A DNA stretch of 46,455 bases from Chthonomonadia bacterium (GTDB lineage: Bacteria; Armatimonadota; HRBIN16), in assembly GCA_013314755.1 (NCBI GenBank), contig JABUFA010000029.1, positions 1 to 46,455 on the forward strand. Reading direction: 5' to 3'. Below are positions 24,816-46,455 of this stretch, piece by piece. The position numbers were made by a program, and so were the translations under genes. Under the pieces are notes generated by a model, which was not told where the DNA came from, did no database searches, and saw only the letters and a program-made list of their open reading frames with translations. Position 1 is the stretch's first letter, and every line of letters starts with the position of its first letter.

Positions 24816-24843
24816 ACAGGGACAGGCACTCGCCTGTCCCTGT
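24816..24843 (+). terminator. Terminator of groESL
   Basis: ACAGGGACAGGC (24816-24827) and GCCTGTCCCTGT (24832-24843) pair perfectly with an ACTC loop, followed by GTTTGTTT. It is also suitable for the convergent minus-strand gene ending at 24869. Confidence 0.8.
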
Positions 24844-33632: not shown

Positions 33633-33658
33633 CGGCACGAGAGGTTTCTCTCGTGCCG
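33633..33658 (+). terminator. Terminator after the sigma-factor gene
   Basis: CGGCACGAGAG and CTCTCGTGCCG are a perfect 11-bp stem with a GTTT loop, followed on the plus strand by a T-rich stretch beginning TTCGCTCTTTATT. No T-run is present in the other direction. Confidence 0.65.
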
Positions 33659-33666
33659 TTCGCTCT

Positions 33667-33852
33667 TTATTCCCCTTCTTTTTGTCCCTTCGGGGACGCA
33701 GAAGACTTCCACCGCCCGGCTTTCCGTGCAGCCTCTTTCAACAGATACTCTATCTGCGCATTGACGCTTCGCAGCTCGTCCGCCGCCCACTTTTCCAGAA
33801 CCGCGTATAACTCTTCGTCAATGCGCAGAAGAAAACGCTTCTTCTCAGGCAT
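33667..33852 (-). CDS. Arc-like ribbon-helix-helix protein
   Basis: 61 residues. [20 protein letters not shown] matches the beta strand and first helix of Arc/CopG-type ribbon-helix-helix domains, and [15 protein letters not shown] the second helix. Such proteins bind DNA as dimers. The ATG (33852) overlaps the stop of the SPFH gene by 8 bases, so it is translated from the same message. A palindrome lies near the operon promoter and could be its operator. Partner to the SPFH protein by position; whether it acts on its own operon is inference. Confidence 0.85.
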
Positions 33853-34729
33853 ACAGCGTCCCCGTGTTGATGACCGGCGTCGCTTCGTGCTCTGAAACCA
33901 GCGCAACCAGCAGGTTGTTCACCATCGCCGCCCGTCGCTCTTCGTCAAGCTCCACCACCTGGTGCTCGCTTAGCTGGCGCAACGCCATCTCTACCATGCC
34001 GACCGCGCCCTCCACGATGCGCTGGCGAGCAGCGATGATTGCCTCCGCCTGCTGACGGCGCAGCATCGCCTGGGCAATCTCAGGAGCATATGCGAGGTGG
34101 CTGATACGTGCCTCAATGACCTCCACCCCGGCGACCTCCAAACGCGCCTGCACCTCTCGCTTCAGCTCCTGGGCAATCTCCTCCGGGTTGCCACGCAGAG
34201 ACGCCTCTCCCTCGATGTGCGAGTCGTAAGGATACCGGGTCGCCAGAGCACGAATGGCGGTCTCGCTCTGCGTCGCCACGAACTCCGGATAGTTCTCCAC
34301 CTCCAGCAGCGCCTTCGCCGAGTCCACCACGCGCCAGACCACTACCGCCGCAATCTCTATCGGGTTGCCCAGCGCGTCGTTGACCTTCAGCTTGTCGCTG
34401 TTGAAGTTGTGGATTCGCAAAGAGACGCGAGGTCGCAGGGTGAACGGATTCGTCCACCAGAAGCCGCTTTCGCGCACCGACCCCACGTACCGCCCGAAGA
34501 ACACCACAACCCGCGCCGTGTTGGGCTGTACCACAAAGAACCCGGACCACAGGAAACTGGCAAGCACCAGCAAGATGATGCCGTACCAGAACCTGCCGGG
34601 CCATGCGATGTCCTGGTCAATCGCCGACCGGATAATCAGCCAGATACACAGCACGTGCACAGCAATCTGCAGCACCAGCACCACAAAGCCATTGGTGTAC
34701 CAAGCCTTACTTTCGCGGATGGGTTCCAT
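33845..34729 (-). CDS. SPFH/band-7 domain membrane protein
   Basis: 294 residues. Two N-terminal hydrophobic segments ([20 protein letters not shown] and [15 protein letters not shown]) anchor it; the SPFH domain begins near [17 protein letters not shown] and continues through [20 protein letters not shown] and [11 protein letters not shown] to the helical [17 protein letters not shown] coiled-coil region. Proteins of this stomatin/flotillin-like type form membrane-associated oligomeric rings. ATG 34729 follows AGGAGG. Promoter at 34762-34790. It is the first gene of a two-gene operon with a ribbon-helix-helix protein. Confidence 0.9.
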
Positions 34730-34790: not shown

Positions 34791-34817
34791 CAGTTTAGCC
34801 TCCACGCAGGTATGGAT

Positions 34818-34867
34818 TGCTGAAGCCATGCTTCAGCATTCCAAAGTAGCCCGCAACTTCTTGTTGC
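34818..34867. repeat. Single copy of the hairpin repeat family
   Basis: TGCTGAAGC-CAT-GCTTCAGCA (34818-34838) and GCAAC-TTCTT-GTTGC (34853-34867) with the words TAGCCCGCAAC and TTGCAAGG between or after them. The same modules recur in the array at 45808-46191. It sits upstream of the SPFH promoter and the DUF5060 gene. Confidence 0.75.
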
Positions 34868-34959
34868 AAGGGTGCGTTTCTCTGATGTGGACAAAGGTAG
34901 AACGCCTGCGAAGGGCGAAAACAAAGTTAAGCACATGCCGATGAAGCGAGGTACAGTCT

Positions 34960-36945
34960 ATGCAGAAGTCCACATCGGAAGCCGGGTGGCAATCCGCAAA
35001 CGCCAGAGCCTTTCACCTGCACGAATGGAGATTCCAGCTGAAACCGTCGGGGAATCCCTTTTCGCCTGTGGATAACGACATCGTTGCAGAGATTCGCCTG
35101 CCCACGGGCGAAACGGTTCGCCAGCCCGCTTTCTGGGACGGCGATAGCACATGGAAGGTCAGGCTAACCCCTGTTCGCTCCGGGCGCATTCAATGGCGAC
35201 TGCTCAGAAACGGTGCTCCGCTTTCTGTACAGGCGCAATTAGAAATTAAAGCGATTTCACCGCAGGCGTTGCAGGGTTTCGTTCGGAAGCATCCCCGCCT
35301 GAAGCAGTTTGTCACCGACACGGGTAAGGTCTTCTATCCCCTTGGGCAGAACGTTGCATGGAGAACCCAGAATACCGATTACCCTGTCTTTTTCGAGCAG
35401 ATGTCGCGGGCGAACATGAACTGGGCAAGGGTGTGGCTGTGTCACTGGGACGGTAAAAACCCCGACTGGGTGATGAATAAGCCGGTGGAACCCGGCTGGC
35501 TGGACATGGAGGTTATCCGACGCCTAGAGGAAATCGTGCGCCTTGCGGAAAGGTACGGCATTTTCATCCAGCTGACCCTTCAGCATCACGGGCAATACTC
35601 CACCCGAACGAACCCAAACTGGGCAGAAAACCCCTGGAACAGGCAGAACGGCGGCTTTCTCGAATCGCCGGAGCAGTTCTTCACCCACCCTCGCGCCATA
35701 GAGCTGACGCGCCATAAATACCGTTACTTCGTCGCGCGATGGGGCTACTCGCCGCATATCATGGCGTGGGAGCTGTTCAACGAGGTGGAATGGACCGACG
35801 CTTCCGCCAGCGGCAGGTGGGAGGTCGTTGCGCAGTGGCACCAGCAGATGGCGCAGTTCTTGAGGTCTATAGACACACACCGACACCTCATCACTACCAG
35901 CTCCGCCATGCACGTTCCCTCACTGTGGCAGGAGATGGACTATTACCAGCCTCACTACTATGTGCCGGACATTGCGGGCACTCTGCTGGCAATGCACCCC
36001 GACCAGTGGAACAAGCCCATTTTTATCGGTGAATGGGGTGGCGCAAATCCCCAGCAGTGGAACGATGAAGCTTTCCTGCGGCAGGGGCTATGGGTGGGCG
36101 TCATGCGCGGACTGGCAGGCGCAGCACAGTGGTGGTCCTGGGAGACCACCGAATCGCGCAAATGGTACCCTTACTGGGCGTCGCTTTCACAATTCTTGAA
36201 GATGGCAAATTACTCCACCGACCGCCTCTGGCAGGCATTACCTGCACGAGTGCTATCGGATGCACAGGCGCCGTTTCGCTTCTCGCCGGGCGGCGGATGG
36301 GAAGCCACTACGCAATATCGCTTCTCTGTGCCGACCGACGGCTCGCCGGTGGAGGGGCTGTCGCGTTTATCGCGGTTTGTTCAGGGCGAGTCGCATCGTG
36401 ATATGTGCCGGGAGCCTGTGGTGCTGGAGGTGCAGTTCGCCAGAGATGGAACGTGTACGCTACACGTGGGCACCGTCGCCCGCAGTGGCGCGGCTATAGT
36501 CGTCAAACTGGACAATCGCACCGTCGTTGAAGAGAAGTTCCCGTCGGCACAGCGCGATACTTTCGTGAACAGGCAAATCTCCTTCCCTGTGCCTGCGGGC
36601 AAGCACACCGTCTCCATCTTCAACCCGGGACCCGACTGGTTCACGCTGGACAGCGTCACGCTGGCTCCCTATGCCCCGCCCAGCAAGGCGGCCGCCTGCG
36701 GCAACGGCCAGAGCGCCATATGGTATCTGTGGCGTGAACAGCCCGTGGAAGCGCAGATTACCCTGAAGATACCGGACATCAAACGGGGAAGATACAGGAT
36801 TGTGTGGTGGGAACCCTCCTCTGCGAAAACGGTATACACGGAGACCATCGCCGTAGCGCAGGGAGGATTGGAGGTGAAAGTTCCCTCGCACGAGCGAGAT
36901 ATCGCAGGTTGTTTGCTTCCCGAGGGGCGCCGAGTCAGCCTGTAA
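34960..36945 (+). CDS. DUF5060-containing GH5-like glycoside hydrolase
   Basis: 661 residues. The N-terminal beta-sandwich (about 15-95; WRFQLKPSGNPFSPVDNDI...GRIQWRLL) resembles DUF5060, usually joined to a GH5-like (DUF4038) barrel. The barrel spans about 100-420; Glu275 in FNEVEW is the acid/base position and Glu358 in IGEWGG the nucleophile position of clan GH-A. The C-terminal beta region (about 480-660) looks like carbohydrate-binding modules. No signal peptide is visible, so it may be cytoplasmic or exported atypically. The start ATG 34960 has only a distant GAGG. Its last ~16 bases overlap rnpB on the other strand. Confidence 0.82.
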   Translation: MQKSTSEAGWQSANARAFHLHEWRFQLKPSGNPFSPVDNDIVAEIRLPTGETVRQPAFWDGDSTWKVRLTPVRSGRIQWRLLRNGAPLSVQAQLEIKAISPQALQGFVRKHPRLKQFVTDTGKVFYPLGQNVAWRTQNTDYPVFFEQMSRANMNWARVWLCHWDGKNPDWVMNKPVEPGWLDMEVIRRLEEIVRLAERYGIFIQLTLQHHGQYSTRTNPNWAENPWNRQNGGFLESPEQFFTHPRAIELTRHKYRYFVARWGYSPHIMAWELFNEVEWTDASASGRWEVVAQWHQQMAQFLRSIDTHRHLITTSSAMHVPSLWQEMDYYQPHYYVPDIAGTLLAMHPDQWNKPIFIGEWGGANPQQWNDEAFLRQGLWVGVMRGLAGAAQWWSWETTESRKWYPYWASLSQFLKMANYSTDRLWQALPARVLSDAQAPFRFSPGGGWEATTQYRFSVPTDGSPVEGLSRLSRFVQGESHRDMCREPVVLEVQFARDGTCTLHVGTVARSGAAIVVKLDNRTVVEEKFPSAQRDTFVNRQISFPVPAGKHTVSIFNPGPDWFTLDSVTLAPYAPPSKAAACGNGQSAIWYLWREQPVEAQITLKIPDIKRGRYRIVWWEPSSAKTVYTETIAVAQGGLEVKVPSHERDIAGCLLPEGRRVSL

Positions 36946-43901: not shown

Positions 43902-44859
43902 GCGGATTTCCTCCCCCCGTCCCACCGCGTGGCGTCAGTACGGGCGCGAGATGAGCGTGGGGGTCTTTTTGCTCTTACTGCTGGCGTATTTCGGCACAAC
44001 GCCCGGCTTTCTGCAGGCGAGTAACCTGCGCGATATCCTCATTAACGCCGCGCCGCTGACCATTGCCGCGTGCGGGATGAGCATGGTCATCATCGCAGGC
44101 ATGATCGACATCTCCGCTGGCTCTGTACTGGCGGTGTGCGCGGTGGTGGCGGGGTTAACGGCAAAGTCGGGAGCGCCGCTTGCGCTGATTGTGTTGTTGC
44201 CGATGCTGGCAGGTGCAGCCATTGGCGCGGTGAATGGCTGGCTGGTGGCTTACCTGCGCATCCCCGCGATTATCGTCACGCTGGGCATGATGAGCGTCCT
44301 GCGAGGAGGAATCATCTGGTATACACGCGGCGAGTGGATTGGCAACCTGCCCCCTTCCTTCTCGGCGGTCGGGCGCGGCGAGGTAGGCGGCATTCCTGTG
44401 CCCGTCTTGCTTGCCATGGGGGTCGTACTACTGACCGCGCTTCTTTTGGCTCGCACGCCGCTGGGACGTCACATCTACGCCGTCGGGGGCAATCCTGTCG
44501 CCGCGGGACGGATGGGCATCTCCGTGCGCCGCGTGCTGTGGCTGGTGTTCGTGCTTCACGGTGCCCTGCTGGGTCTGTCTGCGCTGGTGTATGCCTCGCG
44601 ATTCAGCGTTATCCAGAGCAACGCCGGCGCGGGGTTCGAACTGCTCGCCATCAGCGCGGTGGTGGTGGGAGGAGTCAACATCTTCGGCGGGCAGGGAACC
44701 GTGTGGGGCAGTGCGGTCGGCGCTCTGCTCCTGCAGGTCATCAGCACGGGGCTGATTTTCCGCCGCGTTTCGGAGTACTGGGCGCCGAGCGTGCAGGGTG
44801 CGCTGGTACTGCTGGCGGTGGTGGCAGATGCTCTGCGCACGCGGAGGTTAGGGCGATGA
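43891..44859 (+). CDS. ABC sugar importer permease (RbsC/LsrC type)
   Basis: 322 residues with about ten hydrophobic helices. GMSMVIIAGMIDISAGSVLAV near residue 65 and LGMMSVLRGGIIW are the signature segments of the ribose/xylose-type permease family, and AISAVVVGGVNIFGGQGTVWG is the C-terminal coupling region. It overlaps the binding-protein gene by 11 bases and the second permease by 4. A heterodimer of the two permeases is the expected membrane core, as in LsrC-LsrD. Confidence 0.92.
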   Translation: MTSERISSPRPTAWRQYGREMSVGVFLLLLLAYFGTTPGFLQASNLRDILINAAPLTIAACGMSMVIIAGMIDISAGSVLAVCAVVAGLTAKSGAPLALIVLLPMLAGAAIGAVNGWLVAYLRIPAIIVTLGMMSVLRGGIIWYTRGEWIGNLPPSFSAVGRGEVGGIPVPVLLAMGVVLLTALLLARTPLGRHIYAVGGNPVAAGRMGISVRRVLWLVFVLHGALLGLSALVYASRFSVIQSNAGAGFELLAISAVVVGGVNIFGGQGTVWGSAVGALLLQVISTGLIFRRVSEYWAPSVQGALVLLAVVADALRTRRLGR

Positions 44860-45794
44860 GGGTGCGGTTGCCCCGTCGGGAAGCGGTGCTGTTGATTCTA
44901 CTGGCTGTCGAAATGGCGGCGATGCAATCGCTCTCTCCCCTCTTCCTCACCGCAGATAACCTGATAGAGGTGGTTCGCCAGTCCGCCGAGATTGGTCTGA
45001 TTGCCCTGGCGATGACGCTGGTTATCATCACCGCAGGGATAGACCTCTCGGTTGGTTCAGTCGTGGGTTTAAGCATTATGGTGATGGGCATGTTGTGGGA
45101 AGATGCAGGACTGCCCATTGCCGTCTCCGCCCTGCTGGCGTTGCTGGCGGGAACGCTGTGCGGGGTGTTCAACGGGGCGCTGATTACCGCCGTCGGCATT
45201 CCTCCGCTGATTGTGACGCTGGCGACGATGGCAGGCTTTCGTGGCATCGCGCTGGGCATGAGTCAGGCGCGTTCCATCCGAAACTTCCCGGAAGGCTTCC
45301 TCTGGCTCGGTCAGGGCTATGTGCTGGGCATCCCGGTGCAGGTGTGGGTGCTGGCGGTGTGCGCTCTGCTGTTCCATATAGCTCTCACGCGCACCGCGTG
45401 GGGGCGGTCGGTTTTCAGCATCGGCGCGAACGAGCCCGCCGCGCGGCTGTCGGGGATTGCCGTCAACCGCTTGAAGCGACAGGTATATGCGTTGTCCGGC
45501 TTCATGAGCGCGCTGTCGGCGGTGGTCTATGCCGCGCATGTCTCCGTCGCCAAGCCCGACGCCGGGCTGGGGTTCGAACTCACGGCAATCACCGCGGTGG
45601 TGCTGGGTGGAACCGCCGTCTCCGGCGGCGAGGGCGGCGTGCTGGGCACACTGATTGCCCTGTTGATGGTGGGCTTCCTGCGCAGTGGACTCACGCTGGC
45701 GCGTGTGCCCTCCGAAGCGCAGGACATGATGGTGGGACTGCTTCTTATCCTCGTGGTGGCGATCGACCGCTGGAGCCGCAAGGAGAAGGGGTAA
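44856..45794 (+). CDS. ABC sugar importer permease (LsrD/RbsC type)
   Basis: 312 residues, a paralogue of the preceding permease. IALAMTLVIITAGIDLSVGSVVGL and LIVTLATMAGFRGIAL match the family, as does AITAVVLGGTAVSGGEGGVLGT. ATG 44856 overlaps the previous stop (ATGA) and has GGAGG 9 bases upstream. A much longer open frame starts at 44070 but lies out of frame within the first permease and is rejected. The ATPase (RbsA/LsrA) is not found downstream within the window. Confidence 0.92.
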   Translation: MRVRLPRREAVLLILLAVEMAAMQSLSPLFLTADNLIEVVRQSAEIGLIALAMTLVIITAGIDLSVGSVVGLSIMVMGMLWEDAGLPIAVSALLALLAGTLCGVFNGALITAVGIPPLIVTLATMAGFRGIALGMSQARSIRNFPEGFLWLGQGYVLGIPVQVWVLAVCALLFHIALTRTAWGRSVFSIGANEPAARLSGIAVNRLKRQVYALSGFMSALSAVVYAAHVSVAKPDAGLGFELTAITAVVLGGTAVSGGEGGVLGTLIALLMVGFLRSGLTLARVPSEAQDMMVGLLLILVVAIDRWSRKEKG

Positions 45795-45807
45795 GACCTC
45801 TTTGGAG

Positions 45808-46191
45808 TGCTGAAGCTTGCTTCAGCAGACCGTTAACCTGCGTCCTTTTGGAGTGTTGAAGCTACTTCAGCAAACTCCCTAACCTGCGTCAGCAGGTTTC
45901 GTTCTGTGTAGCCTGCGATTTCTAATCGCAAGGTTGGCATAAAACGGAGGAATACAACCCTGCAACTGAAAGTTGCGGGCTACCCTTAACAAAGCCTCCT
46001 TCGGAGGCTGAGTCTGATGCTGAAGCATGGCTTCAGCACTCCACATGAACCTGCGTCAGCAGGTTTTGTTTTGGGTTGCCTGCGATTTCCAATCGCAAGG
46101 ACACTCTCTCCTGTGCTGAAGCATGGCTTCAACACTCTATAAACCTGCTTTAGCAGGTTTCGTTCTGTGTAGCCTCCGATTTCCAATCACA
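45808..46191. repeat. Array of hairpin repeats in an intergenic region
   Basis: No gene is supported between 45795 and 46294. The region is filled with short perfect inverted repeats in a recurring order: a TGCTGAAGC/GCTTCAGCA type (45808-45827, 45854-45872, 46018-46038, 46114-46134), an AACCTGC/GCAGGTT type (45881-45898, 46048-46065, 46141-46160) and a TGCGATT/AATCGCA type (45914-45930, 46081-46097, and a decayed copy near 46175-46191). Linker words such as TCTGTGTAGCCT recur too. A GCAACT/AGTTGC hairpin (45962-45976) and an AGCCTCC/GGAGGCT hairpin (45993-46009) interrupt the pattern. The unit is about 100-170 bases long and occurs roughly three times. Confidence 0.85.
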
Positions 46192-46234
46192 AGGGCACTC
46201 TCCTCATCCAGCACGCCGACCTCCGCACAACCTC

Positions 46235-46263
46235 TTGACATGTTTTTGTGGTTACCTTATAAT
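46235..46263 (+). promoter_or_regulatory. Perfect consensus sigma70 promoter
   Basis: TTGACA (46235-46240), exactly 17 bases, and TATAAT (46258-46263). A small inverted repeat ACACA-C-TGTGT (46268-46278) follows at the expected transcription start and could be an operator. Confidence 0.85.
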
Positions 46264-46294: not shown

Positions 46295-46455
46295 GTGTGC
46301 AGAGTAGCGCTGTTTTGCCAGGATGCACCCCTTCTTCAGAAACTGCGCAGTTGTCTGGAGAAAGAAGGCTTTACCGTGTGCATACATCCCTGCCAGGCGG
46401 AAGCGGCGGCAGTGGTCGATTCGCCCTTGACTCCCGCGCAGGTGGAGGTGTTGCA
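46295..46455 (+). CDS. Start of a regulator-like gene (cut by window edge)
   Basis: GTG 46295 follows GAGGG and opens a frame that runs off the window. The visible ~53 residues (MCRVALFCQDAPLLQKLRSC..., EKEGFTVCIHP) have the look of a CheY-like receiver start: a first strand, a possible acidic residue (QDAP), then an amphipathic helix and the second strand. This is too short to be sure. A consensus promoter immediately upstream suggests strong expression. Confidence 0.6.
   Translation, partial: MCRVALFCQDAPLLQKLRSCLEKEGFTVCIHPCQAEAAAVVDSPLTPAQVEVL

Follow-up and report, generated by a model that had tools for sequence, protein, structure and literature searches.

What is the dense run of short hairpins near the 3' end of the 46,455-nucleotide stretch of DNA analyzed here (the window), and how could it have formed? 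The initial annotation drew this array from 45808 to 46191 and recognized three kinds of hairpin, here termed A, B and C, recurring three times in the same order. We place it at ∼45803–46194, starting a few bases 3' of a permease stop codon at 45794. The A-B-C order does occur three times, with the last copy degraded, and decayed copies are present as described. Perfect hairpins were found at 45808–45827 and 46018–46038 for A, at 45881–45898, 46048–46065 and 46141–46160 for B, and at 45914–45930 and 46081–46097 for C; degraded copies of A and C lie at 46117–46131 and within 46140–46194, respectively. These three kinds hold up, but there are five in all, hairpins D (45961–45976) and E (45993–46009) having been overlooked. 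In 425 bp we counted 8 stems of at least 7 bp, where shuffled sequence gave 0.09 on average and never more than 1, and no other stretch of the window is as dense in hairpins. Relative to shuffles, the array has a folding z-score of –9.9 when treated as RNA and of –10.4 when treated as DNA.

All five hairpin types can be derived from two modules, one being hairpin A and the other a half-unit (HU) made of two hairpins. An alignment of all such stretches in this genome showed that B-C and the reverse complement of D-E are one and the same HU, in which a linker with GTAGCC at its end joins hairpin 1 to hairpin 2. Since D-E is a B-C-type half-unit read on the opposite strand, two half-units of the array are inverted relative to each other, and a simple direct repeat in three copies does not describe it. 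Its modules follow the order A+, HU+, HU–, A–, HU+, A–, HU+, and the features of the region are as follows (bit scores are those of an HU covariance model).

44856–45794 (+), ABC transporter permease (BPD_transp_2; Pfam PF02653, E 2.3e-42), the last gene 5' of the array.
45803–45827 (+), A hairpin in + orientation, with 5' tag GGAGTG, stem TGCTGAAGC/GCTTCAGCA and loop TT.
45834–45843 (+), truncated B-hairpin fragment (AACCTGCGTC), read by eye from the sequence.
45850–45872 (+), decayed A hairpin (GGAGTGTTGAAGCTACTTCAGCA), recognized from its sequence and a repeat-family match and missing from the initial annotation.
45879–45933 (+), HU composed of B (AACCTGC..GCAGGTT), linker, tag GTAG and bulged C (CCTGCGATT..AATCGC-A-AGG); 72.8 bits, E 1.1e-23.
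45958–46012 (–), HU composed, on the reverse complement, of E (AGCCTCC..GGAGGCT), linker, tag GTAG and bulged D (CCCGCAACT..AGTTGC-A-GGG); 67.8 bits, E 6.2e-22.
46018–46042 (–), A hairpin in – orientation, between E and the next B, the centre of a C'B'-A-BC unit.
46046–46100 (+), HU composed of B, linker, tag GTTG and bulged C; 73.5 bits, E 6.1e-24.
46114–46138 (–), decaying A hairpin in – orientation, with one mismatch in the stem.
46140–46194 (+), HU whose C stem has decayed (two broken pairs); 55.0 bits, E 2e-17.
46235–46263 (+), sigma-70-like promoter TTGACA-17-TATAAT, 12/12 matches, between the array and the next ORF.
46296–46455 (+), downstream ORF with a GTG start, open at the window end, read by eye.

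A reduced second copy lies at 34797–34871 (+) and comprises an E-like remnant, an A hairpin and a D-type hairpin with GTAG. It gives a covariance-model match of 20.3 bits at 34823–34871 and is flanked by divergent genes (33845–34729, –; 34960–36945, +). The window also holds lone perfect hairpins with stems of 11–12 bp at 423–450, 24816–24843 and 33633–33658, which fall outside the families of the array and are perhaps terminators.

We compared 202 half-units. The stems differ from one another by compensatory changes. In stem 2, position 3 is CG in 93 and TA in 92 half-units, position 6 is GC in 135 and AT in 62, and position 8 is CG in 98 and TA in 89. Stem 1 likewise has AT in 122 versus GC in 56, and at position 6 GC in 114 versus CG in 75. 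Paired combinations far exceed those in column shuffles, a control inflated by the relatedness of the copies. One bulged base, which may be A, C, T or G, is kept in the 3' arm of hairpin 2, and the foot of this bulged hairpin (C in the array) carries the tag GTAG in 106/202 half-units and GTTG in 77/202.

A genome-wide search showed that copies are dispersed; confinement to this locus, which the initial annotation had named as fatal to its view, is not what we found. A 297-base query taken from the array gave 179 matches in the 3.95-Mb genome, spread over dozens of contigs and including more than 30 strong array loci. Exact A and C hairpins number 122 and 75, respectively, and a reversed control pattern gave 0. 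All told, the genome contains >60 dispersed mosaics of these modules. Two or more modules were present in 64 intergenic regions and in no gene (∼300 kb examined). The grammar is regular: in all 36 parsed HU centres, the pair consists of one E-type and one B-type arm. In 28 of them E and B are separated by hairpin A, 22 times in one orientation and 6 times in the opposite one, and in the remaining 8 E lies directly beside B. Although repeated hairpin-forming units recall a CRISPR, there is no constant direct repeat with unique spacers of constant length and the copies are dispersed; we rejected that candidate, in agreement with the earlier description of the array as modular and unlike CRISPR.

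The two modules differ in their distribution. Exact copies of hairpin A are absent from nine congeners, making it species-specific among the ten genomes of the genus. Its tag is GGAGT and not the canonical GT[AG]G of REP elements. A RAYT-like protein, proposed earlier as something to look for in linkage with the array, is encoded in the genome, but not adjacent to the array. This single RAYT scores 104.6 bits against NF047646 (cut-off 80), has TnpArep 4er8 as its nearest solved structure (E 1.8e-6), and contains an HxH motif and a Y(V/I)HYNP stretch. Its gene (contig C57, locus L046, 1261–1812, – strand) is flanked on both sides by hairpins of the form GCGGAAGC..GCTTCCGC, ten in all. Elsewhere this core is nearly absent; of 7 exact occurrences with a two-base loop, 6 are at the RAYT gene. 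Apart from a single compensatory pair (T-A to G-C), the flanking hairpins match A, down to the tag (GGA[GC]TGC) and both loop types. Hairpin A is probably a substrate of this one RAYT, an HUH tyrosine transposase. Against this link, the flanking hairpins are siblings of A and not A itself.

We saw no link between the RAYT and the half-unit. Congener G003 has no RAYT, yet it carries ∼36 copies of the HU pair, so a RAYT cannot be the general mover of the HU family. In another congener, G005, a RAYT gene (L113, 1096–2135) is flanked by its own, different hairpins (GCACGCTAAAGCGTGC, GCAGGCTTTAGCCTGC and TGCGCACTGAAGTGCGCA). Judged by the motifs NHYH, FQ and YVHYNP, the RAYT of the present genome looks like a member of subclass 2.1, for which automatic and manual searches gave no REP-like sequences (PMC6006769). 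In this it would depart from the known RAYT–REP systems, and the REPtron concept would be widened by a RAYT that has ten non-GTAG hairpins on its flanks.

The HU, by comparison, is widespread. DNA similarity to the array does not reach beyond the genus, but the HU covariance model found matches in at least 39 of 151 genomes of the phylum (at least 27 of 100 genera). Ten of these genomes have at least 19 copies each; the counts are lower bounds, as only the best first-look candidates were scored. In the distant loci that we fetched, the HUs pair in the order – then + (C'B'BC) in 22 loci, and the reverse order was never seen. Across the phylum, bulge and linker are conserved and the stems differ (e.g. 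AGTCGGC/AGTCCGC and GCGACC/GCGACT in distant genomes). Because order and bulge can be traced phylum-wide while compensatory change has rewritten the stems, the family offers a natural experiment that separates what is recognized (bulge, linker and tag) from what is not (stem sequence). The two arms of a unit are also unlike each other. Using covariance-model coordinates, we found stem 1 to differ between the arms in 20/20 C'B'BC units from six distant genomes (L171–L200), with local hairpins intact, and the same is true of all 36 parsed centres of this species. Taken within a single genome, the rule that arms differ is not significant (chance 0.19 and 0.11). Searches of other collections gave little: exact scans of viral contigs with two core motifs had no match, and a distant element queried against a plasmid collection gave only two partial Caballeronia matches, covering one third of the query. 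A literature search, which included queries with the exact stem sequences, turned up no description of the element in the papers covered.

These observations suggest that the array is neither a gene nor a CRISPR but, most likely, what is left of mobile, non-coding DNA. Of the origins considered, we favor, with somewhat better than even confidence, a BIME-like mosaic of two dispersed non-coding hairpin families, in which a RAYT-type REP (hairpin A) invaded an older palindromic element. The older family consists of two half-units joined tail to tail (C'B'BC). Hairpin A would have spread by means of the RAYT acting on single-stranded DNA, entering the centre of the palindromic element, and the composite would then have been copied further. 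Tandem runs such as the one studied here may have grown by recombination or replication slippage. The arrays would persist because sites between transcription units tolerate them, perhaps with some damping of read-through. That the array is a transposition-generated element had been proposed at the outset and is the view we share; we infer the mobility of the modules, and likewise their cleavage and transcription.

How does such a mosaic relate to known repeats? The initial annotation considered the array unlike REP elements, which is right for single REPs. It is very like the BIMEs of enterobacteria, which are mosaics of alternately oriented hairpins joined by short, conserved, shared linkers, intergenic, high in copy number and prone to tandem runs. 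It differs from them in mixing two unrelated hairpin families, in having a two-hairpin half-unit detectable phylum-wide, and in lying often between divergent genes. REP and BIME biology has a mostly proteobacterial basis. The array shares high-copy, dispersed, intergenic modules with GTAG-tagged REPs and REPINs, which are associated with RAYT (TnpA-REP). Hairpin C, with a GTAG/GTTG tag at the foot of a bulged stem, recalls them in part, and the one RAYT gene present is bordered by hairpins of A type, much like a REPtron. Yet the A tag lacks GTAG, and HU pairs thrive in a RAYT-less congener. We do not claim canonical REP membership, since neither the A tag nor the gene context fits. The BOX elements of Streptococcus pneumoniae are modular intergenic repeats that can form stable stem–loops, and to that extent they resemble the array, which differs in its palindromic module grammar. 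On balance, the array is best filed as a BIME-type mosaic, new in that a REP-type hairpin specific to the species, and tied to a RAYT through a near sibling, is combined with a palindromic two-arm element of older date.

A bolder version of this view is that C'B'BC represents an undescribed, phylum-wide class of four-hairpin element, whose arms are kept unlike while local hairpins, bulge and linker are preserved, as if a long palindrome were forbidden but four short ones demanded, and that a RAYT of a supposedly REP-less subclass has hairpins of its own. We put this forward tentatively, as the less probable side of the wager.

To assess where the arrays lie, we used a dynamic-programming gene caller that recovers the genes of the window. 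The 64 module-bearing regions fall between 32 tandem, 28 divergent and 4 convergent gene pairs, whereas the REPs described in the literature are found chiefly where neighbouring genes are unidirectional or convergent (PMC3733652). For comparison, element-free regions of 100 bp or more in these stretches comprised 21 tandem, 6 divergent and 5 convergent pairs. Divergent pairs are enriched relative to this set (odds 3.4, p 0.02), but the excess loses significance when only element-free regions of 150 bp or more are compared, and the depletion of convergent pairs is not significant. The median distance from an array is 48 nt to 3' ends and 116 nt to start codons. A sigma-70-like promoter (at least 9/12 matches) was found in 48% of the flanks that face a gene start; the corresponding shares were 5% in shuffled sequence and 10% for the opposite strand. 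The median spacing between the –35 box and the array edge is 48 nt. Such placement would suit host-useful boundaries, with arrays acting as bidirectional attenuators or insulators that end read-through and shield the next promoter. The position of arrays between transcription units, near 3' ends and promoters, the share in divergent and tandem pairs, and the compensatory changes that keep the stems all fit this idea. The transcription buffer that the initial annotation had suggested would likewise suit positions between transcription units. But insertions that avoid genes and promoters would reach the same places. Moreover, terminator-like sites (a GC-rich hairpin plus a T run) number just 2 in the array versus 0.8 in shuffles, placement is unbiased in distant genomes (14 loci, simpler gene caller; 6 tandem, 4 divergent and 4 convergent), and copies in congeners have ends like those of transposable elements. 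We consider a boundary function an unlikely origin for the arrays, although an insulator role could well be put to the test, given that they lie beside promoters and separate divergent genes.

Strong covariation, the conserved linker, the conserved one-base bulge and the z-score of the array folded as RNA are also what one would expect if the half-unit or the four-hairpin unit were transcribed as a structured RNA, for example a 3' stabilizer or a protein-binding RNA. Hairpins bound as single-stranded DNA would covary in the same way, however. Many of the copies separate divergent genes and precede both promoters, positions at which one would not expect a transcript, and copies number in the tens per genome. 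No Rfam family scored above its gathering threshold, and we judged the sub-threshold matches to be chance. A structured RNA family seems distinctly improbable.

Equally improbable, in our estimate, is that a DDE transposase moved a MITE of which C'B'BC formed the interior, the ends having been lost in this genome. The case for it comes from congeners G003 and G005, where the C'B'BC core, without A, lies within ∼183-bp elements with terminal inverted repeats, reminiscent of MITEs and of RU/ERIC-type small mobile sequences. These elements gave 36 matches in G003 and 32 in G005 (loci L081–L110). Their inverted-repeat ends (TAGTACTYTGTCAA) occur 51 times in G003 and 34 times in G005, and are found also in G002, where HU matches number two only. 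Unlike in those congeners, TAGTACTYTGTCAA ends are absent from this genome and from G001, though G001 has HU matches and a C'B'BC pair; none like them was seen in the distant elements that we read, and no autonomous partner was identified. TA flanks, a possible target duplication, are suggested by eye only for the G003 and G005 elements. Finally, tandem duplication at this locus only has next to no probability and was rejected: two to three tandem units do lie here, but >60 unlinked loci share the same modules.
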